Source: a virus. From it: a stretch of 25,040 bases of DNA. Where the stretch lies: IMG/VR virus record IMGVR_UViG_3300035698_002219, positions 1 through 25,040 of that record; one strand, 5' to 3'. Positions within the stretch are counted from its first letter, which is position 1. Every line of letters starts with the position of its first letter. The notes beneath the pieces were generated by a model that was not told where the DNA came from, ran no database searches, and saw nothing but the letters and a program-made list of their open reading frames with translations. Shown here one piece after another: positions 1-16,336 of this stretch. A program made the position numbers and the translations under genes.

Positions 1-449
1 ATACTTGGTGTTACAGTTAAAGCACCACTTCCAGTATAGTATTGGAATAGAAGATAGTTCGTGAATGTACTGTCAGCGAACACTAGCGATGACCCACCAC
101 TACTAAGTGTATCTGCTATTACAAGGAAGGTATCTAACGCCCCAGCGTTAGCTATTCCTATCGGTTCACCTACTGACCTTGCGCTAAGAAGAGGCAGAGT
201 AGATGCAGCCGCTGAGAAAGTGTGTTGTGAAAATAACCATGAATTGTTTACCGAATCGCCTACCCAAGTACCGTAACCGGCTTGTATCGTTTCGGTAGTA
301 CTGAAATTAGTTATCCATGAGAAATCTGCTGTCGGTACATTCGTTCCGTCTAAACGCAACCATTTGCCATCTAAGGCTGTTTCTTTCCATGTAGCATCTA
401 GTTGACCGCTAAATGGATTTAAAACTCTAAATTCGTAGTCATTGTCAGA
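1..449 (-). CDS. Downstream part of a tail-fibre-like reading frame, cut by the window edge and by the HNH gene
   Basis: An open minus-strand frame runs off the left edge. It reads from about SDNDYEFRVLNPFSG through DGKWLRLDGTN and a Ser/Thr/Gly/Ala-rich, beta-type stretch to the window edge. Composition and place (last structural gene, after the ejection proteins) fit a phage tail fibre or tail-associated protein. I recognise no named domain. The frame has no ATG, GTG or Shine-Dalgarno at its right end and simply continues antisense into the HNH promoter and gene. It is in the same codon phase as the fragment at 1143-1436, so the two look like halves of one gene separated by about 720 bases. 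The right boundary given is where the tail-like sequence seems to stop, an estimate. Whether this half is translated alone is unknown. Confidence 0.5.
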
Positions 450-456
450 ATAACAC

Positions 457-485
457 TTGACACAGGACAGCAAGACGAATATAAT
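457..485 (+). promoter_or_regulatory. Perfect consensus sigma-70 promoter for the HNH gene
   Basis: TTGACA at 457-462 and TATAAT at 480-485 are separated by exactly 17 bases, a full match to the bacterial housekeeping consensus. The predicted start site is near 492. A Shine-Dalgarno (AAAGGAGA, ending near 502) and the ATG at 507 follow, which leaves a leader of only about 15 bases. It points rightward, against the rest of the operon. It should let the HNH gene be expressed by host RNA polymerase independently of phage late transcription, and it would make RNA antisense to the tail-fibre frame. Confidence 0.85.
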
Positions 486-506
486 ACAAACAACAAAGGA
501 GACACA

Positions 507-1178
507 ATGCCTAACAACTTTTGCCTTACTTGCAACAAATCTTTTTATGTAAAACCTTGTTATTTCAAACTGGGACAAGGGAAATATTGTTCTCACGAAT
601 GTTATCATGTTTCGCTTAGAGGGAAACCCCGCCCTGATAGATGGACTACTAGAGTTCTTGTTAAATGTCAAGACTGCGGAAAATCTTTTTATACCTATCC
701 AAAGAAGATTGCCAACAACAGAGGAAAATTTTGTTCTAAGAAATGCTTTAATAAAAGCAAGATAACATCTGTACAGGTTTCTTGTGGATATTGCAACAAG
801 ACTATAACTAGAATCCAATCCGACATATCTAAGAATAAACTTTCGTACTGCTCTAAAGCTTGCTATGGACTTAGCAGAATAGGTAAAAAGCATCCTAACA
901 GCAAGAGGCAATATATTAGTGGCGGATACTCGTGGATCTATTGCCCTGACCATCCTAGAGCAACAAAGATGGGATATATCTCTGAACACAGTCTTATCTA
1001 TGAAAAGTTTCTTAAAAGATATCTTACAAGTGAAGAAGTAATCCATCATATTAACCGAAATAAAACTGATAATAGGTTTGAAAACCTTTCTTATTTTGCT
1101 AATAACGCTTTGCATATTAAATATCATAGAAAACTCCAAAGATTAGCTAAACAATCCATCATACTCCAAAAAAGTTAA
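507..1178 (+). CDS. HNH endonuclease with three N-terminal zinc ribbons (probable free-standing homing endonuclease)
   Basis: The product is 223 residues. It starts with three zinc-binding modules of identical spacing, C-x2-C-x18-C-x3-C: C6/C9/C28/C32, C54/C57/C76/C80 and C93/C96/C115/C119. A C-terminal HNH nuclease domain follows (about 135-210) with H161, the EVIHHINRNKTDNRFENL core (HH at 180-181) and H203/H207. This architecture is common in phage-encoded HNH enzymes that nick or cut DNA and spread their own gene. The start is supported by AAAGGAGA just upstream. It is the only plus-strand gene in the window and has its own consensus promoter. Its last 36 bases overlap the end of the minus-strand fragment at 1143-1436, as expected if it inserted into that gene. 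The nuclease family is clear; target site and mobility are inference. Confidence 0.9.
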   Translation: MPNNFCLTCNKSFYVKPCYFKLGQGKYCSHECYHVSLRGKPRPDRWTTRVLVKCQDCGKSFYTYPKKIANNRGKFCSKKCFNKSKITSVQVSCGYCNKTITRIQSDISKNKLSYCSKACYGLSRIGKKHPNSKRQYISGGYSWIYCPDHPRATKMGYISEHSLIYEKFLKRYLTSEEVIHHINRNKTDNRFENLSYFANNALHIKYHRKLQRLAKQSIILQKS

Positions 1179-1436
1179 TGTGCTACGAGCGTCCCAATCA
1201 GTTTGAAAGACACCAGAATTTTCAGAATTTTTGCTATGGAAATATTTTGTGATTATATCATTGCTGTCAGCCAAGTTCCTTTCCATAATAATATATTCGC
1301 CTGTTGCCGCTATCCAAGCATTAAACTGTTTATCAGCAACACTCCCCATGTCTTGCCTAGAGACTTGAAAATTGACATAGTTATCACCTCTTTTAGACAA
1401 AACATGAAGAGTATCCCTAAAAGTCAATCCACTCAT
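1143..1436 (-). CDS. N-terminal fragment of a tail-fibre-like protein, truncated by the HNH gene
   Basis: The frame is 97 residues and begins MSGLTFRDTLHVLSKRGDN. Its ATG overlaps the stop of the coiled-coil gene upstream (ATGA). Residues to about DWDARSTLTF look like normal protein. The last ten residues are encoded by the reverse complement of the HNH gene's 3' end and end at an accidental TAA. The codon phase equals that of the tail-like frame at 1-449, so removal of about 720 bases (near 447/1170) would give an in-frame ...STLTF-SDNDYEF... junction. I infer an original longer tail protein, now split. The fragment may still be translated, because its ribosome entry is intact. I recognise no family. 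Confidence 0.6.
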   Translation of the reverse strand: MSGLTFRDTLHVLSKRGDNYVNFQVSRQDMGSVADKQFNAWIAATGEYIIMERNLADSNDIITKYFHSKNSENSGVFQTDWDARSTLTFLEYDGLFS

Positions 1437-1879
1437 AACTTAAGTCCTAGCATTTTGGCCGCTTCTTTAACCCTTTTCGTGTTAACTTTTAGTTTTTCTT
1501 CACGCCCGATTAAATCAGTTTCTTTTTCGGCTAACCCTTCTTGTTGCTTATCCAAAGTAGCTCTCTCAGATACCATAAGAAACCTAGTATTCTTTATTTT
1601 CTTTTCTTCTTCAGAAGCTATCTCATCAGCATTAAGTAAAGCCGCTTGTGCTTCGGCTAAGACTTCATCTGTCTCTTTCTTTAATGTGACAACATCTTTA
1701 ACACCTTTGACTTCAGCACGTTCAGCCTTGAGAACTTTCTTTTCTACCTTGACTTCAGCAATCAAATCATCAAGCTTGATACTCTTTGCACTTGCCTCTG
1801 AAACCAATCCATCTAACATACTGTTTTTCTGTGCTACCATAGCACAAAGTTCCTGCAACTTGTTCACTATCGCTTCCAT
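1433..1879 (-). CDS. Small coiled-coil protein, unknown function
   Basis: A 148-residue protein, very rich in Glu, Lys and Ala with long heptad-like stretches (about 40-140, for example VEKKVLKAERAEVKGVKD and EEEKKIKN), predicted almost entirely helical coiled coil. It has no signal peptide or membrane segment. The start is fixed by AGGAGG seven bases upstream of the ATG. The stop overlaps the next start as ATGA, so the two are translationally coupled. It lies between the ejection proteins and the tail-fibre frame. Helical-bundle proteins here could be fibre chaperones, fibre-attachment parts or trimerisation factors, but the sequence does not decide. Confidence 0.75.
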   Translation of the reverse strand: MEAIVNKLQELCAMVAQKNSMLDGLVSEASAKSIKLDDLIAEVKVEKKVLKAERAEVKGVKDVVTLKKETDEVLAEAQAALLNADEIASEEEKKIKNTRFLMVSERATLDKQQEGLAEKETDLIGREEKLKVNTKRVKEAAKMLGLKL

Positions 1880-1892
1880 TGTAGACCTCCTG

Positions 1893-2093
1893 TTATTCTA
1901 TTCCAATAAAATCAACTGTTACATATATGTAATTTCCCGTTGTCGTACTTGCACCACTAGGCTGAAATTTAGCTCTAACCCACGGAGCAGTTAACCTTAC
2001 ATCAAAGTAAGTAACATACTTTTCATCTGCCGTTGATACTACACTCGTGTGGGTTTGTCTCCTGCCACAATAGCAGTTTTTATTATATCCTTG
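1893..2093 (-). pseudogene. Small beta-rich ORF without a start codon, probably frameshifted
   Basis: The gap between the large ejection protein and the coiled-coil gene holds a 66-codon open frame. It ends ...STTTGNYIYVTVDFIGIE and contains STADEKYVTYFDVRLTAPWV, which reads like real protein. It contains no ATG, GTG, TTG or CTG. The alternative frame just upstream reads TAIVAGDKPTRV and then stops at a TAG. Dropping one GT from the GTGT there (plus-strand 2042-2051 area) would join the two frames as ...GDKPTRVVSTADEKY.... Even then no good start with a Shine-Dalgarno is visible. It is either a decaying small gene or a sequence error. Function unknown. Confidence 0.35.
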
Positions 2094-4566
2094 TTATATC
2101 GTCTATCTCTCTCAATGGTCTAAGTATAATGTCTCTTCTAAGAGTATCTATTTCTTTTTTCTTGTCGCTATCAGATAACACTTTATATTCAAAACTTTTA
2201 ATCGTGATTCTCACTTGATTAGCATATTCTTTCTGATATGTTGATACAGCTTTATCAGATTGTTCAGTCTTAGGATGTGATACCGTAGGCATATTATTAC
2301 TTTGATTTAATCTGTTAAACTCTAGAAGAATATCGTTTGTCTTATCATCTTTGAACCCTAGAAAACCTGTAGATTCTACATCTCTACCAAGAAAATCGTA
2401 TCTCTTATCTCTTGGTACTACTGCGTTATATAAATCATACGATATGATTGCTGGTAGCACCCTAACCTTAATCCATTGTTTGAAATCCTTATTACCAAAA
2501 CCTAAAGAATCAACAGTATCAGCTAGTTCTTTTGAAGAAGCCGCTTTGGTTATTTTTCTTGTTATTATTTCGTTAGCTTCTTTGATACCCGGAGTTTCTA
2601 AAAGTTGCGCGAATAATCCTCCCATATATCCAGAAACTCCCGATTCGCCCTTGGCTCGTGCTTGCCGTAAACCCATGATTCCCGATAGAGGTATATTGAT
2701 TATAGGCAAGTATCTCAAGGGGATCCAAACCCCACCAACCCTCAACATTCCAGCGTTTGCACCTCTCGCCCTAGCTAATGCCCCTTCCTTTGGTTCTAAC
2801 GCATGATATGGTGCGATATAGTCATCGTCATCGAGAAGTGCCGCTATGACCACCACAGCGACTGAGAAACCTAGATATCTTACAAGTTTATCTACACCTT
2901 CGTGCATCCTCTCTGCCCTAGTTTCTATATTCTTTTCTTTTACTGAATTGCTTATTTGCCATAGTGCATTAAACGCACCTATTCCCAGAGCCGCTTGAAA
3001 CCCTTGACTTGCGGTAGTAGCTGGTATTTTTGCGAATGGCATAATTACCTTGCCAAAATTTACACCTGCTAGTTTGAATTTTTCTCTTACACCTAGTACG
3101 ATTTCACTCATGCCGTCTGTTTGCGTTCCGTTCATTCTATGCGCATCTTTTATTGCCGCATATCGTATATGAATGGCTTTAGGGTCTACTGGAGTAAAAC
3201 TATAACTATCTTTAAGCAACTGATCTGCCCTCTGCTCTTCTGTCATACCTTTAGGCAATTGTCCTTTCTTCGCCTCCATAGCCGCTATCTCACGGCTCAT
3301 CATCGTAGCTGTGTCTGCTCTACCCATATTAGCGAATAACGTATCTGTACCACCTGCTAACCATTTAGGTGCTTGGCTTGCCGTTCTCGATATCCTAGCC
3401 ATTACACTAGCGAATTTTTCTAATGCACCCTTAGATTCTCTGAATGGTTTAGCTACCGCACGGTTTACTTTCTCACCAAAGAACATACGTCCTTCGGCTA
3501 AGTTCTCCATACGAGATATATCATACCCTGTCTTATGGTACAACCTCATAGCAAAGGCGGTTTGTTTTCTAATGAACTCCCCCGATGCTTTGCTCGGTTT
3601 AATGCCCGATATCTTGGCTTGCATCTTCTCAAGGACGGTGCTTTTCATGTCAGCACTATTCATGTTGCCTGATACGATCCTTTTAACTATCGCTCTTTCT
3701 ATTGCGGGGATACCCTGATAAAGGAAACTATTCTTTAATATTCTATGTGACGCTAATATATTCGCTCTCATAGTATCTATTATCATGTTGGCTACCCTAG
3801 ATGGTGTCTGTGGAGTTAGCATAGCAGCGTAATCCCGTACCGCTTGCTCTTTAAGCAAAAAGTCCGTAATGACATCTTCGTTTTCGTAAGTCAACGACCC
3901 GTCAGTTTTCTCCATCATAAGATCAAAAGCATCACGTTGTGCATCTGTCAACTTAGATAGTTTCTGGCTTTCCTCAACTGTAAGATTAACGCCTAGCTTA
4001 TCCTCGACTAATGTCTCCATAAAACTAGCTGTATCTTCAGGATTCAACGCACCCAAATCATCAAGTGCCTCTATCTTAGAGATAGCACCTTTCAACCTCT
4101 TATCGTCTCTGAGCTTGTCAGTACCAAACGCACGTTTTTCCCATAGCTTCAGATTGCCAGAGACTTTCAAATCTCTATAGAAACCGTTGAGTGTCTTTGC
4201 CATCTCAGGATTAACGTACTTTTCTAATGTCTCTATGCGTTCACCCTCTGACATCTTTCTCATAGCTCTGATATTTATACCTTTCGCCATAGCTTGTGAT
4301 TCTGCGATAGATAACCCGTCATAGAGTGGCGTTACATTAAACATATTATACACCGCTCGCCTTAAAGCCATCTTCTGCCTAGGAACCAAGAAAGCCTTTT
4401 CTAGTCTAGCTACAGCCATCTTTGCACTATTTCCGATATACTTCTCAAGCATAGCAACCCTGTCTTTAGACGTTGCCTCACGCAGAATATCCATAGTGAT
4501 TTTCTTTTCCCTGAAAGCCTGTTTCAAGTCTTGTGCCTTATCTTTCATTATGCAATCTATAGGCAT
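2083..4566 (-). CDS. Large internal virion / DNA-ejection protein (gp16-like position)
   Basis: An 827-residue protein, mostly helical and charged, the last of three large proteins after the nozzle gene. This is the position of T7 gp16-type ejection proteins. A strong hydrophobic segment (about 565-580, GFSVAVVVIAALL) followed by DDDD, and a second apolar stretch (PLRYLPIINIPLSGIMGL), resemble the C-terminal regions of large phage internal or polyvalent proteins, which can enter the host membrane during injection. No lytic transglycosylase motif is seen, unlike T7 gp16. Its ATG shares one base with the stop of the upstream gene (TGATG), with GAGGAG about 11 bases upstream. A second ATG six codons in is possible. 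The role as an ejected virion protein is inferred from context, composition and size. Confidence 0.65.
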   Translation of the reverse strand: MPIDCIMKDKAQDLKQAFREKKITMDILREATSKDRVAMLEKYIGNSAKMAVARLEKAFLVPRQKMALRRAVYNMFNVTPLYDGLSIAESQAMAKGINIRAMRKMSEGERIETLEKYVNPEMAKTLNGFYRDLKVSGNLKLWEKRAFGTDKLRDDKRLKGAISKIEALDDLGALNPEDTASFMETLVEDKLGVNLTVEESQKLSKLTDAQRDAFDLMMEKTDGSLTYENEDVITDFLLKEQAVRDYAAMLTPQTPSRVANMIIDTMRANILASHRILKNSFLYQGIPAIERAIVKRIVSGNMNSADMKSTVLEKMQAKISGIKPSKASGEFIRKQTAFAMRLYHKTGYDISRMENLAEGRMFFGEKVNRAVAKPFRESKGALEKFASVMARISRTASQAPKWLAGGTDTLFANMGRADTATMMSREIAAMEAKKGQLPKGMTEEQRADQLLKDSYSFTPVDPKAIHIRYAAIKDAHRMNGTQTDGMSEIVLGVREKFKLAGVNFGKVIMPFAKIPATTASQGFQAALGIGAFNALWQISNSVKEKNIETRAERMHEGVDKLVRYLGFSVAVVVIAALLDDDDYIAPYHALEPKEGALARARGANAGMLRVGGVWIPLRYLPIINIPLSGIMGLRQARAKGESGVSGYMGGLFAQLLETPGIKEANEIITRKITKAASSKELADTVDSLGFGNKDFKQWIKVRVLPAIISYDLYNAVVPRDKRYDFLGRDVESTGFLGFKDDKTNDILLEFNRLNQSNNMPTVSHPKTEQSDKAVSTYQKEYANQVRITIKSFEYKVLSDSDKKKEIDTLRRDIILRPLREIDDITRI

Positions 4567-12809: not shown

Positions 12810-13718
12810 TTAATACGGATGCCAAACACCATCATTTGACGTTCCGTATATATACGATGATCCTAACTGTCTTGCTACTATCCATTCATCTGCTCTTGCT
12901 TCACGGGGCGAACCCTGTGTAGAATCAGAAAATACAGCTTTGGGTAATGTAACACTTTCAAATTTCTGTAACAATTTCTCTGCTTTAGTAGCACTATTCG
13001 TTAACGAGAAACATATCTCCGAAGCTATCTTACCAGCTAATGCATCTCTAAACTGTGATGTATATGACGATGGTGTATCGAGACTATATGTGTATATTAT
13101 TTTCAAATCATCTACGTTAGATAAGATACGTAATTCCTCTACTTTTATCCTAGCTAGTCTATTAGAGAACATATTGACTTCAAGCAAATCTGTAGGACGA
13201 TAGAATATATAGCTCATCCCATCTTCTGTAAAATTAAGCACTTCTGATAATATCCAATATACCGATGTTAAGTCAGTAGCAAACGTCCCTGCTGTATGTG
13301 CTGTAAGACAAGTATAATTAAGCCCTGAACTATACACCTGATCGCCTTTAGCGTAGCCTGTAGCAGTCACCCAAGTCAACTTGACTTCCCAATCAAGTGC
13401 CGCTAACTCTACAGAAAACGTAACTGACGTATTCGCTATAAGACAGTTATAAACTACATCGTTATAAAAGACAGTATCACCTACTGCATAAGACGTAGCC
13501 GTTTCCCATAAATCAACGTCAGGATGCGTCATATCAATAAGCTCTGCACGTTTCTGCGCAAATGTCCAGGGATGTTCCATAAGCATAGAATCACGACAAT
13601 CATCATAGACATCTGTAACAAGTCGTTGCTCTTCAACATCATCGGCTACAGTAGATAATCTTCTAGAACCGCATAGAGATAATGTTTTATTGTAAATTGT
13701 TAATTTCGTTACTGCCAT
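12810..13718 (-). CDS. Tail adaptor / tail tubular protein A-like, with two CBM-like repeats
   Basis: A 302-residue protein beginning MAVTKLTIYNKTLSLCGSRRL, with CRDSMLMEHPWTFAQKRAEL at 41-60, both typical of gp11-like adaptors that join portal and nozzle. Inserted after residue 70 are two tandem repeats (71-111 and 116-156) of the form W-x2-A-x2-YA-x-GD-x-V ... Y-x-C-x2-A-x-T-x2-TF ... L-x4-W, resembling carbohydrate-binding modules of the CBM5/12 (chitin-binding-like) type. The conserved adaptor fold resumes with DGMSYIFYRPTDLLEVN and IIYTYSLDT. I chose this ATG over one ten codons upstream because AGGAG lies eight bases before it. The gene starts 32 bases inside the end of the Wzy-like gene. 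Adaptor identity is firm; sugar binding is inferred. Confidence 0.82.
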   Translation of the reverse strand: MAVTKLTIYNKTLSLCGSRRLSTVADDVEEQRLVTDVYDDCRDSMLMEHPWTFAQKRAELIDMTHPDVDLWETATSYAVGDTVFYNDVVYNCLIANTSVTFSVELAALDWEVKLTWVTATGYAKGDQVYSSGLNYTCLTAHTAGTFATDLTSVYWILSEVLNFTEDGMSYIFYRPTDLLEVNMFSNRLARIKVEELRILSNVDDLKIIYTYSLDTPSSYTSQFRDALAGKIASEICFSLTNSATKAEKLLQKFESVTLPKAVFSDSTQGSPREARADEWIVARQLGSSYIYGTSNDGVWHPY

Positions 13719-14862
13719 GTTCCACACTCCTGTTATGCAAAAGACCAACTAGAACTGCTGTGAATAGACAAAATGGACCCATCTGCCAAACAAACATACC
13801 TCCAGCACTTACAGCCACACATGTAAAACTGCTCAGTAAAGCAGTACGATACTCATTCTTAAGGAAATTCATCTTATAGATATACCCTATTGCCATCAGT
13901 AACATAATCAATCCTATAATCCCACAATTGTATGTCCACTCAAGATACTCGTTATGTGCCTCGTAAACTTTATTCCTGTGTATAATATGAAAGGTATAAT
14001 AGAAGCTTCCTAGCCCCCTGCCCGTTAAAGGGTACTTGCCAAACTCTTTGCCATCTTCCATATCTCTATCTGAGATAGGTGCGTTAATATCCTCAATTAC
14101 CTGTACCCATGCGTCAAACCTACCAGAACTTGTAACGTAGTCGGGTTTATAGTGCTTCAGGGCTACCACACCGCTACTTATCACTATAAGGCATACAATC
14201 ACACTAACTAATTGTTTTCGTCCCTTACAAGCGAAGTAGAACGCTAAACTCACTATCATCGCTCCGATACCGACTTGGCTCTGTATTACCAGTACAGCGA
14301 CTATTATTGTGAGTGCCATAGCCTTTTTCTTGAGATAAAACGCTAAAGGTACTATCATCGCTATAAATGGCCCAACAAATGCCGGATGTCCTAATGTACC
14401 CGAATAGTTCCATTGTTCGTGAAACATACCGTTTGATTTAAAAAACTGGTCAAGGTTTAAGCCTTGAAATAGAGTGAACCCTGCCATGATAGTCCCTACC
14501 CATACCATAACAGTTAAAATTGTTTTAACCTTGAAATCTTTACCTAGGCTGGATATCGCTACAATACCAAGTAAATACGCTAGAATATAGCAGAAAGGTT
14601 TCCAACTCCAGAACTGCATTAACTGCATCCCGAATAAATCTACTCCACTTGAAGGTGATAGCATTATGTTCAGCCATACGAACCCAACAAGTATCAATGC
14701 CCATTTGTTGCTGAACTGTTTTATTTCGCCCTTATATAGTGATAACAGCCCCAATGCTAACATAGTCGCAAACGCTAAAGCACTCTTAAGCTCACGGATA
14801 TCTTGGCTTTTTATGCTTACGAAAGGTACTATAATTAGCATCAAGGCTATTATCTTTTCCAT
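13687..14862 (-). CDS. O-antigen ligase/polymerase-like membrane protein (Wzy_C/WaaL type)
   Basis: A 391-residue protein with about ten transmembrane segments. A long extracytoplasmic loop carries the family hallmarks: GRFDAW (247-252), PLTGRGLGSF (278-287) and AHNEYLEW (302-309), followed by a Cys-Gly-Ile-Ile-Gly membrane segment. GTLGHPAFVGPF (155-166) is also typical. Known members polymerise O-antigen repeats or ligate glycan to lipid A core or protein, using undecaprenyl-linked donors at the periplasmic face. AAGGAG lies just before the ATG, and the 3' end overlaps the tail adaptor gene by 32 bases. It is fully embedded in the virion operon, not in a separate moron cassette with its own promoter. 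Ligase and polymerase cannot be told apart by eye. A role in changing the host surface is inference. Confidence 0.85.
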   Translation of the reverse strand: MEKIIALMLIIVPFVSIKSQDIRELKSALAFATMLALGLLSLYKGEIKQFSNKWALILVGFVWLNIMLSPSSGVDLFGMQLMQFWSWKPFCYILAYLLGIVAISSLGKDFKVKTILTVMVWVGTIMAGFTLFQGLNLDQFFKSNGMFHEQWNYSGTLGHPAFVGPFIAMIVPLAFYLKKKAMALTIIVAVLVIQSQVGIGAMIVSLAFYFACKGRKQLVSVIVCLIVISSGVVALKHYKPDYVTSSGRFDAWVQVIEDINAPISDRDMEDGKEFGKYPLTGRGLGSFYYTFHIIHRNKVYEAHNEYLEWTYNCGIIGLIMLLMAIGYIYKMNFLKNEYRTALLSSFTCVAVSAGGMFVWQMGPFCLFTAVLVGLLHNRSVEHGSNEINNLQ

Positions 14863-14870
14863 GTTACTCC

Positions 14871-15422
14871 TTATCCAGCATTAGACCAAGCTCCAGAGCC
14901 TATACCTGGCTTGATTGATTCAACATACCAATCTCCACCAAATGCTCTGAGTGTTATTACCGGATAACTGTCTGCATACGATCCTGTGATACTTTCACCA
15001 ACTGCCATGCTAGTTGACAAGAATATAATAGCATCGTCCTGTGGCTCTATATTCATGTCAGGTGGTGTTGCTCCACCTTTAGCTACGCCAGTCATAAAGG
15101 TGAAATATACACCGTCATGCGTTGTCGCTGTGATAGATGGCAAAACAAACGACCTACTACCCGTAGGTACTCCCGTTGCAACAAAAGTCGTTCCTGACTC
15201 AGAAACTTCAATTGTATCTGGAGTAGCGGATTCTTCCGATATCCGTTCACCGATCTTTACTTCCTGTACTGCCGTATAAGGGTCACCTATATCAACATTC
15301 CCGGTGAAGTTCAAATCCATCGCTGAATCTGTCCTTACACCCTGATCCCTTACACCTACACTTGCAAAAGCCATGCTACACGCAAAGACCAATGCAAGAG
15401 TCATTACAAATAACTTTTTCAT
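14871..15422 (-). CDS. Secreted protein with Sec signal peptide, unknown function
   Basis: The 183-residue product starts with a textbook signal peptide: MKK, then LFVMTLALVFACSM, with a likely cleavage after AFA (residue 20). The mature part is Ser/Thr/Gly-rich and beta-type, ending with YPVITLRAFGGDWYVESIKP and GIGSGAWSNAG. I chose this ATG because GGAGG lies just upstream. An upstream in-frame ATG would lie inside the preceding gene and bury the signal peptide. It follows the decoration-like genes and precedes the Wzy-like gene by eight bases. A signal peptide is unexpected in a virion operon. The protein is probably exported to the periplasm or surface, perhaps acting with its membrane neighbour. 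The C-terminal sequence also resembles small beta domains in phage structural proteins, so a virion role is not excluded. Confidence 0.8.
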   Translation of the reverse strand: MKKLFVMTLALVFACSMAFASVGVRDQGVRTDSAMDLNFTGNVDIGDPYTAVQEVKIGERISEESATPDTIEVSESGTTFVATGVPTGSRSFVLPSITATTHDGVYFTFMTGVAKGGATPPDMNIEPQDDAIIFLSTSMAVGESITGSYADSYPVITLRAFGGDWYVESIKPGIGSGAWSNAG

Positions 15423-15432
15423 AACTTCCTCC

Positions 15433-15882
15433 TTAATCCTTAGTGTAAAACACAACCATGTTGATCGTACCAGTAGTACCTGACGTTGACGCACCAGTAG
15501 TGATAGTGATCTGATTGTCAGGCGTTGCGGCCGTAGTCATATCAACTTCATAACCTAAACCGTCTGGTTTGTTCAACCGTGTAGTTACCGACCCATCACC
15601 GTGATTGGTCGCAGAAATGTATCTATCCGGATCTTCTAAATCCCCTACGGCAAGCGTTGTTGATGACCCACCGATGTCATCCGTACTCAGGATAACTTCA
15701 AGGATTTTAGAACCTAATGGCAGTTCTGGCCCCATCTCAATCACCGTGCCAGAAACCGTTGAAGATACTTCATACTGGTCAAAAAAGCATTTTACTCGAC
15801 CATCTAAATACCCTTGCTCGAATTTGTTGCTTAGTCCACCAGCGTCTATTAGTGTCTTATTAACACCTTTTACAGTTGCCAT
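15433..15882 (-). CDS. Capsid decoration-like protein, paralogue 2
   Basis: A 149-residue beta-rich protein beginning MATVKGVNKTLIDAGGLSNK, with GYLDGRVKCFFDQYE, GPELPLGSKILEVILSTDD, DPDRYISATNHG, PDGLGYEVDMTT and a C-terminal FYTKD. It is about two thirds identical by eye to its upstream neighbour and clearly arose by tandem duplication. Small abundant proteins encoded directly after the major capsid protein are often head decoration proteins or head fibres, so that role is inferred. The sequence has no diagnostic motif. GAGGAGGG precedes the ATG. Compared with its twin it has a Cys (VKCFF) and a longer Ser/Thr/Gly-rich segment before the C-terminus (GASTSGTTGT). Confidence 0.7.
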   Translation of the reverse strand: MATVKGVNKTLIDAGGLSNKFEQGYLDGRVKCFFDQYEVSSTVSGTVIEMGPELPLGSKILEVILSTDDIGGSSTTLAVGDLEDPDRYISATNHGDGSVTTRLNKPDGLGYEVDMTTAATPDNQITITTGASTSGTTGTINMVVFYTKD

Positions 15883-15892
15883 AATACCCTCC

Positions 15893-16336
15893 TCAATCTT
15901 TGGTATACTTCACTTCGATATTCATCGTACCTGTAGCCGCCGCCGTAGCAGTAGTTACAAGTATCTGATTATCGGGAGTTGAAGCAGTTGTCATGTCGAT
16001 TTCATACCCCAGACCATCCGGGGCATTAAGTCGGGTAGTTAGAACTGTACCTCCACCATGATCTGTAGAGGTTATGTATCTATTCGGATCTTCCGCATCG
16101 CCAACTATCAGCGTTACGTTGTTGCCAAGATCGTCCGTTGATAAAACAACTTCCAATATCTTCGCACCTAAAGGAAGTTCCGGGCCTACCTCGACAACTG
16201 TCGCTAGTAACTCACCTGCGAACTCATACTGGTCAAAAAAGGTTTTTACCCTACCGTCAATATAACCCTGTGATATCTTGTTACTAAGTCCACCAGCGTC
16301 TATCTTTGTTTTGTTTACACCTTTAACTGTAGCCAT
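15893..16336 (-). CDS. Capsid decoration-like protein, paralogue 1
   Basis: A 147-residue protein starting MATVKGVNKTKIDAGGLSNK, with the same blocks as its downstream copy: GYIDGRVKTFFDQYE, GPELPLGAKILEVVLSTDD, DPNRYITSTDHG, PDGLGYEIDMTT, YTKD. AGGAGG is seven bases before the ATG. It lies 43 bases after the major capsid stop and ten bases before its paralogue. By position it could be a decoration or head-fibre protein displayed on the capsid. The best conserved parts are the N-terminal 35 residues and the PELPLG and PDGLGYE blocks. The least conserved part is the stretch after FFDQYE, possibly the exposed face. Confidence 0.7.
   Translation of the reverse strand: MATVKGVNKTKIDAGGLSNKISQGYIDGRVKTFFDQYEFAGELLATVVEVGPELPLGAKILEVVLSTDDLGNNVTLIVGDAEDPNRYITSTDHGGGTVLTTRLNAPDGLGYEIDMTTASTPDNQILVTTATAAATGTMNIEVKYTKD

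Follow-up and report, generated by a model that had tools for sequence, protein, structure and literature searches.

A gene for an HNH endonuclease was found reversed inside a minus-strand operon of an environmental virus, and the strand complementary to its codons forms a reading frame free of stop codons that continues into the downstream gene. The stretch studied in this work, hereafter the window, is a whole virus record of 25,040 bases. Sequence comparison places the insertion within the first codons of the downstream gene (gene B), past its conserved ATG at position 1159 and next to a complete upstream gene (gene A). The openness of the complementary frame exceeds chance, and a lack of antisense stops recurs in diverse HNH genes lying antisense to both neighbours. 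We propose, with confidence and doubt about evenly balanced, that the stop-free complement is read as a relay keeping the A-B operon translated. The wider proposition, held slightly less firmly, is that endonuclease genes invading backward have repeatedly been selected for readability in both directions, a translated relay ORF from the upstream stop to the downstream start shielding the operon from polarity.

The HNH gene and its setting

Terminase and head-tail connector genes on the minus strand, as well as a capsid gene, were found in the window. The HNH gene lies on the plus strand, and the adjoining genes that passed the codon-use gene caller are all on the minus strand (Table 1). Its product matched Pfam family PF13392 (HNH_3) with 27.0 bits, the curated cut-off being 24.8 (E = 3.4e-6), and PHROG HNH families with E values down to 1.8e-17; residues H161, H181, N189 and N193 correspond to invariant columns of a seven-sequence alignment, and three zinc-finger-like repeats of Cys pairs were recognized by eye N-terminal to the HNH domain, with no library match. 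A search of solved structures gave no match. The gene is an ordinary representative of a known family. Further, no Rfam family reached the gathering score in the window when an intron around the HNH ORF was sought, and the gene lies outside any recognised intron, being of the free-standing type.

Table 1. Features around the HNH gene of the window.
Feature	Position	Strand	Basis or remark
Gene B body, running off the record	3..449	-	Homology to L002; no Pfam or PHROG family
Relay frame from ATG 1127, 375 codons	3..1127	-	Complement of the HNH gene, in phase into B, to the end of the record
Predicted sigma-70-type promoter of the HNH gene	457..485	+	TTGACA-17-TATAAT, 12/12; consensus match only
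Shine-Dalgarno-like AAGGAG ahead of the HNH ATG	496..501	+	Sequence
HNH_3-type endonuclease gene, 223 aa	507..1178	+	Pfam and PHROG matches; homologues in viral contigs and phages
Gene B start, displaced (ATG 1162 and 1159); overlaps A at its 3' end	1124..1162	-	Stop after 11-12 codons, TGA 1126-1124
GGAG six bases ahead of ATG 1127	1134..1137	-	Sequence
Gene A, 97 aa, complete with natural stop	1143..1436	-	52% identity, full length, to a 92-aa L002 gene
Small gene preceding A	1433..1879	-	L002 gene similar in size and place; basis size and place only

Fragments A and B, for which a tail-fibre match was sought, gave no Pfam and no PHROG family each; it is their position beside tail and virion genes that suggests the label tail-like. 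Upstream of the small gene preceding A, a start-less frame (1880-2090, minus strand) weakly resembles the last part of a 149-aa leader-bearing gene of the related contig L002, described below (24% identity across 49 aa; E = 0.001 when just these two sequences were compared). Between this frame and the next gene of the window, no ORF corresponds to the 499-aa gene of L002, and the tail-side module of the window may carry a deletion.

Other traits of the structural genes were recorded in passing. A multi-spanning membrane protein is encoded among them (13687-14862, minus strand), with a weak match to the O-antigen ligase family Wzy_C below the curated cut-off. By eye, signal-peptide-like leaders, which are unusual for virion proteins, were seen on proteins of the structural operon, namely in the window at 14871-15494 (minus strand), in L025 at 1435-1884, and at the start of B in L002 (from 6263). 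Also by eye, the genes at 15433-15882 and 15893-16336 (minus strand) appear to be a tandem duplication of a protein of about 148 aa.

Two separate genes flank the insertion

The sole relative found to hold both flanking genes was the contig IMGVR_UViG_3300005613_000183 (L002, also G001). It has the same gene neighbours with no HNH gene between them, in support of the sequence-only reading of a compact insertion made up of promoter and HNH gene; the presence/absence polymorphism characteristic of free-standing homing endonucleases was seen with this one relative. A second scan for gene A, based on a two-row alignment, again returned L002 alone, the beginning of B, searched for as a DNA pattern, was matched by the same contig only, and no relatives of A or B were found among annotated phages.

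Gene A is complete, because the 92-aa gene of L002 aligns across all 97 residues including the end, where L95 and F96 are invariant and the stop comes one residue later; these last residues had been taken for antisense noise, an interpretation that the alignment contradicts. The ATG of L002 gene B lies inside the end of A, in a different phase, and the encoded protein opens with a leader of hydrophobic character, after which comes DYEYIALNPFSGQPDAT. To this segment, DYEFRVLNPFSGQLDAT of the window is homologous (44% identity over 73 aa), and ATG 1159 stands at the same distance from the stop of A as the ATG of L002 gene B. The later portion of the window's gene B is 74% identical to L020, a mosaic contig that shares only this portion of B.

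These comparisons bear on the idea that a single tail gene was split by the HNH gene, its ancestral halves joining as STLTF-SDNDYEF. The HNH ORF indeed lies between two minus-strand frames of one codon phase, as had been reported from the sequence. However, A ends in L002 as it does in the window, and B is separate, out of phase and provided with its own ATG, so that where an uninterrupted gene was to be looked for in related phages, two genes were found. Since the homologues stop at the first fragment and start anew at the second, the arrangement named beforehand as refuting the idea, a single split gene is unsupported, and we regard it as extremely improbable. The shared phase behind the supposed junction is a coincidence, and the interrupted part is the 5' end of gene B.

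One end of the insert was placed near 1150 and the other somewhere from about 437 to 510; these positions are approximate because direct repeats between the flanks are of chance length (the longest, 7 nt, being unsuitably placed) and no relative is close enough. The minus strand of 437-510 reads as signal-peptide-like, with a length that fits the leader of L002 gene B, and the same stretch likewise contains the predicted HNH promoter.

A stop-free frame opposite the HNH gene

Stops in the codon-aligned antisense frame are the complements of TTA and CTA (Leu) and of TCA (Ser). The HNH gene of the window uses TCA in none of its 15 TCN codons and CTA in none of its 12 CTN codons, and its sole TTA is the complement of the stop of A; A-ending codons are otherwise freely used. 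The codon-aligned antisense frame shows no stop anywhere from the stop of A up to where the record ends. For the first 212 HNH codons, the chance of such an open frame is 1.3e-6 under the codon use of the phage and 4.1e-6 under the A-ending codon use of the HNH gene itself. ATG 1127 lies 15 nt past the stop of A and overlaps the TGA that closes the displaced start of B (ATGA). The downstream fragment had been described as devoid of a start codon, which holds for the vicinity of position 449, but the frame stays open as far as ATG 1127.

Alternatively, the insertion may have knocked out B, or the genome may be decaying, the open complement being an accident of the codon preference of the HNH gene. 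The start and leader proper to B are gone, and the missing counterpart of the L002 499-aa gene and the weak trace of the 149-aa gene indicate that the module may be decaying; further, a relay in the window would give gene B a long, odd extension, which counts against our reading. However, an accident is at odds with the two probabilities given above and with the free use of the remaining A-ending codons, and a stop-free complementary frame running into B argues against simple inactivation. Together with the survey results presented below, where 17 of the 32 antisense HNH genes among the matches listed are closed but the open pattern recurs in diverse ones, we consider a knockout with an accidentally open complement somewhat unlikely.

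Survey of HNH genes in viral and genome contigs

Viral contigs were scanned with two HNH motifs and genome contigs with one, both sets being samples of the matches listed. Neighbouring genes were called by codon use, and each HNH gene was classed by its direction relative to both neighbours; ORFs cut by the end of a locus, those below 80 or above 400 codons, and identical proteins were excluded. Expected antisense stops were computed from each gene's own A-ending codon use. The viral set comprised at least 214 distinct HNH genes, the window being excluded (22 antisense to both neighbours, 123 co-oriented), and the genome set at least 88 (10 antisense to both neighbours, 40 co-oriented). The first viral scan is no independent test because the idea arose on it; the independent sets came from the genome contigs and from the second of the viral scans.

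Among the matches listed, antisense HNH genes (n = 32) displayed 120 stops in their complement vs 249.6 expected, and co-oriented genes (n = 163) 1244 vs 1378.4. The viral matches listed contributed 73 stops vs 167.9 expected in antisense genes and 947 vs 1033 in co-oriented ones, the corresponding values of the listed genome matches being 47 vs 81.6 and 297 vs 345. Openness of the antisense frame across 90% or more of the gene's length was found in 15 of 32 antisense but only 4 of 163 co-oriented genes among the matches listed (Fisher p = 1.5e-10; GC-binned permutation p = 5e-5). By scan, the listed antisense genes showed 44 stops vs 99.6 expected with 6 of 11 open in the first viral scan, and 29 vs 68.2, again with 6 of 11 open, in the second; the latter became 24 vs 41.8 on omission of L164, for which the start was probably called too far upstream. 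For the genome matches listed alone, the stop deficit had p = 0.004 and the open count p = 0.11, the latter not significant. No comparable stop loss was detected in the remaining two antisense frames or in the shifted sense frames of the listed viral matches. The open antisense genes among the matches listed are spread over diverse HNH groups; in the non-antisense relatives closest to them, such stops are mostly numerous.

Spacing was also considered. Tightly packed antisense genes (summed gaps of 120 nt or less) held 55 stops vs 147.7 expected and were open in 11 of 18 cases, and loosely packed ones held 65 vs 101.8 and were open in 4 of 14; the comparison of gap size between open and closed antisense genes, among the matches listed, is suggestive only (p = 0.054).

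A deficit of this kind could be compositional, arising from higher-GC genomes or from a strand bias in mutation by which TTA, CTA and TCA become rarer. Consistent with this, median GC among the matches listed was 0.48 for antisense vs 0.36 for co-oriented genes, and an expectation based on the Leu and Ser codon use of the neighbours shrinks the contrast between the two classes: in the listed viral matches, antisense genes reached 0.91 of expectation, so that their deficit is nearly gone, although the same measure gave 1.17 for co-oriented genes, a value that included the window copy L001. In the genome matches listed, the respective ratios were 0.75 and 1.20. The effect nevertheless persists in GC-matched and GC-binned tests, the GC-matched viral antisense genes among the matches listed having 73 stops vs 134 expected and 12 open frames vs 1.43 expected. 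Furthermore, at GC 0.40-0.62, TCA was halved relative to ACA, CCA and GCA in listed antisense genes (0.12 vs 0.25 for the other NCA codons) but not in co-oriented ones (0.29 vs 0.27); CTA and TTA differed little between the classes over the same GC range and matches, as composition would have it. L315, by contrast, is fully open at GC 0.29, where 8.0 stops were expected, and composition does not explain why start codons near the stop of the upstream gene favour one frame, as reported below. Taken together, we find a purely compositional origin quite unlikely.

Empty and oppositely occupied loci

Among 80 relatives of the gene that precedes the L019 insertion, an HNH gene like that of L019 at the same junction was found only in L387, which is the same contig, and in L388, with an upstream gene 91% identical, the next gene follows directly after the stop with no insert. 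In L397, a junction lying more upstream holds another HNH gene in antisense orientation; this gene has 0 antisense stops in 162 codons vs 5.2 expected. L466 carries a sense HNH gene at the junction used in L397, with 8 stops in its complement vs 9.3 expected. Two related phages hence hold HNH genes at one junction in opposite orientations (L397 2076-2564, L466 2137-2634). The empty locus of L388 and the opposite insertions of L397 and L466 fit the relay idea.

As a separate observation, the HNH insert of L387 appears to restore the Lys-Lys-Asp-stop end of the gene that it entered (3640-3670), and this restored end shares TTAA with the stop of the HNH gene itself. A likely copy of the old gene end, AAGCGTGATTAA, persists beyond the insert (4180-4220).

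Start and stop placement in the open cases

The placement of start codons was compared in 17 open cases, i.e., the 15 survey genes, the window and L397, counting a relay-frame ATG within -18 to +30 nt of the stop of the upstream gene. Among the matches listed, 12 of the 17 have such an ATG, from which the relay is open in its entirety, and the other 5 lack one; in the other two antisense frames of the same cases, an ATG was present there in 2 of 17 and 2 of 17. Six of the 17 non-open antisense genes listed had a relay-frame ATG, none of which opened more than 26 codons. At the downstream side, the relay stop and the next start have four bases in common in L019, L084 and L212, and in L133, L199 and L233 the stop precedes that start by no more than about 10 bases; this closeness alone is unsurprising, because the next gene is near. 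The relay takes the form of a separate ORF in most open cases, that of the window being an in-phase fusion to B.

A long open frame with a start codon, packed like a gene between its neighbours in several cases, could also indicate overprinting, in which the protein encoded by the antisense frame would itself be functional and the frame would not serve for the passage of ribosomes. However, the open cases occur on diverse HNH genes, so that their antisense products would form no single family, and the relay of the window ends fused to B, not as a separate protein. We therefore judge overprinting very unlikely.

Discussion

The comparison with L002 shows that a free-standing homing-type HNH gene with its own predicted promoter has inserted in reversed orientation just past the start codon of B, in a densely packed structural operon. 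On the simplest account, the relay mechanism, an antisense insert of this kind would leave a long untranslated gap in the operon message and part coupled genes, and selection may then have purged stops from the sole antisense frame where synonymous change suffices, i.e., at Leu TTA and CTA and at Ser TCA. Ribosomes leaving A, or stopping 11-12 codons past the old ATG of B, could restart at ATG 1127, helped by the GGAG and the ATGA overlap, read the complement of the HNH gene and go on in phase into B. By this means the operon message would stay translated, with no untranslated gap for Rho, and ribosomes would be brought to the next gene or an extension would be fused onto it. The part assigned to Rho as the reason for the relay draws on general knowledge of polarity.

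Introns and inteins owe their tolerance to splicing. To our knowledge, how backward, unspliced endonuclease genes are tolerated in tight phage operons has been much less discussed. If the proposed relay is correct, a readable complement would constitute a splicing-free route to the tolerance of a mobile gene, long antisense ORFs of phage genomes would become interpretable, and mobile genes would be under measurable selection on synonymous Leu and Ser codons. For annotation, antisense ORFs of this type may be translated even though they lie outside any protein family.

In the literature searched, which comprised titles and the beginnings of abstracts, with subscription papers mostly outside its coverage, no description of a recurrent, orientation-dependent stop-free complement was found, and the available part of a review of phage homing endonucleases does not describe one (PMC2988022). 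According to the same part of that review, the free-standing endonuclease genes of T4 are all oriented with the surrounding genes except segD, which is antisense and described as terminator-flanked, and sense-oriented T4 endonuclease genes overlap upstream genes, which is suggestive of translational coupling (PMC2988022). The complement of segD is not open, with 9 stops vs 7.2 expected. Among 10 regions of named isolates obtained in two HNH searches of annotated phages, none held an antisense HNH gene, all being co-oriented with their nearest neighbours.

The HNH gene of the window resembles the T4 seg and mob genes in being a small, intron-less endonuclease gene tightly packed at a junction of structural or metabolic genes, as these are presented in the available part of the review (PMC2988022), but differs from them in its antisense orientation, its own consensus promoter and its stop-free complement. 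Intron- and intein-borne endonucleases face the same problem of keeping an interrupted host gene or operon working; in the window, however, no intron RNA family reached the gathering score and no splicing is involved, and the solution proposed is a readable complementary strand. The L019/L387 and L397 loci, from environmental podovirus-like contigs, share with the window an antisense HNH gene at a gene junction, a fully open complement and a relay ATG at the upstream stop, and differ from it in that their relay forms an ORF by itself, which stops by the start of the next gene at the latest, whereas that of the window is fused in phase to B.
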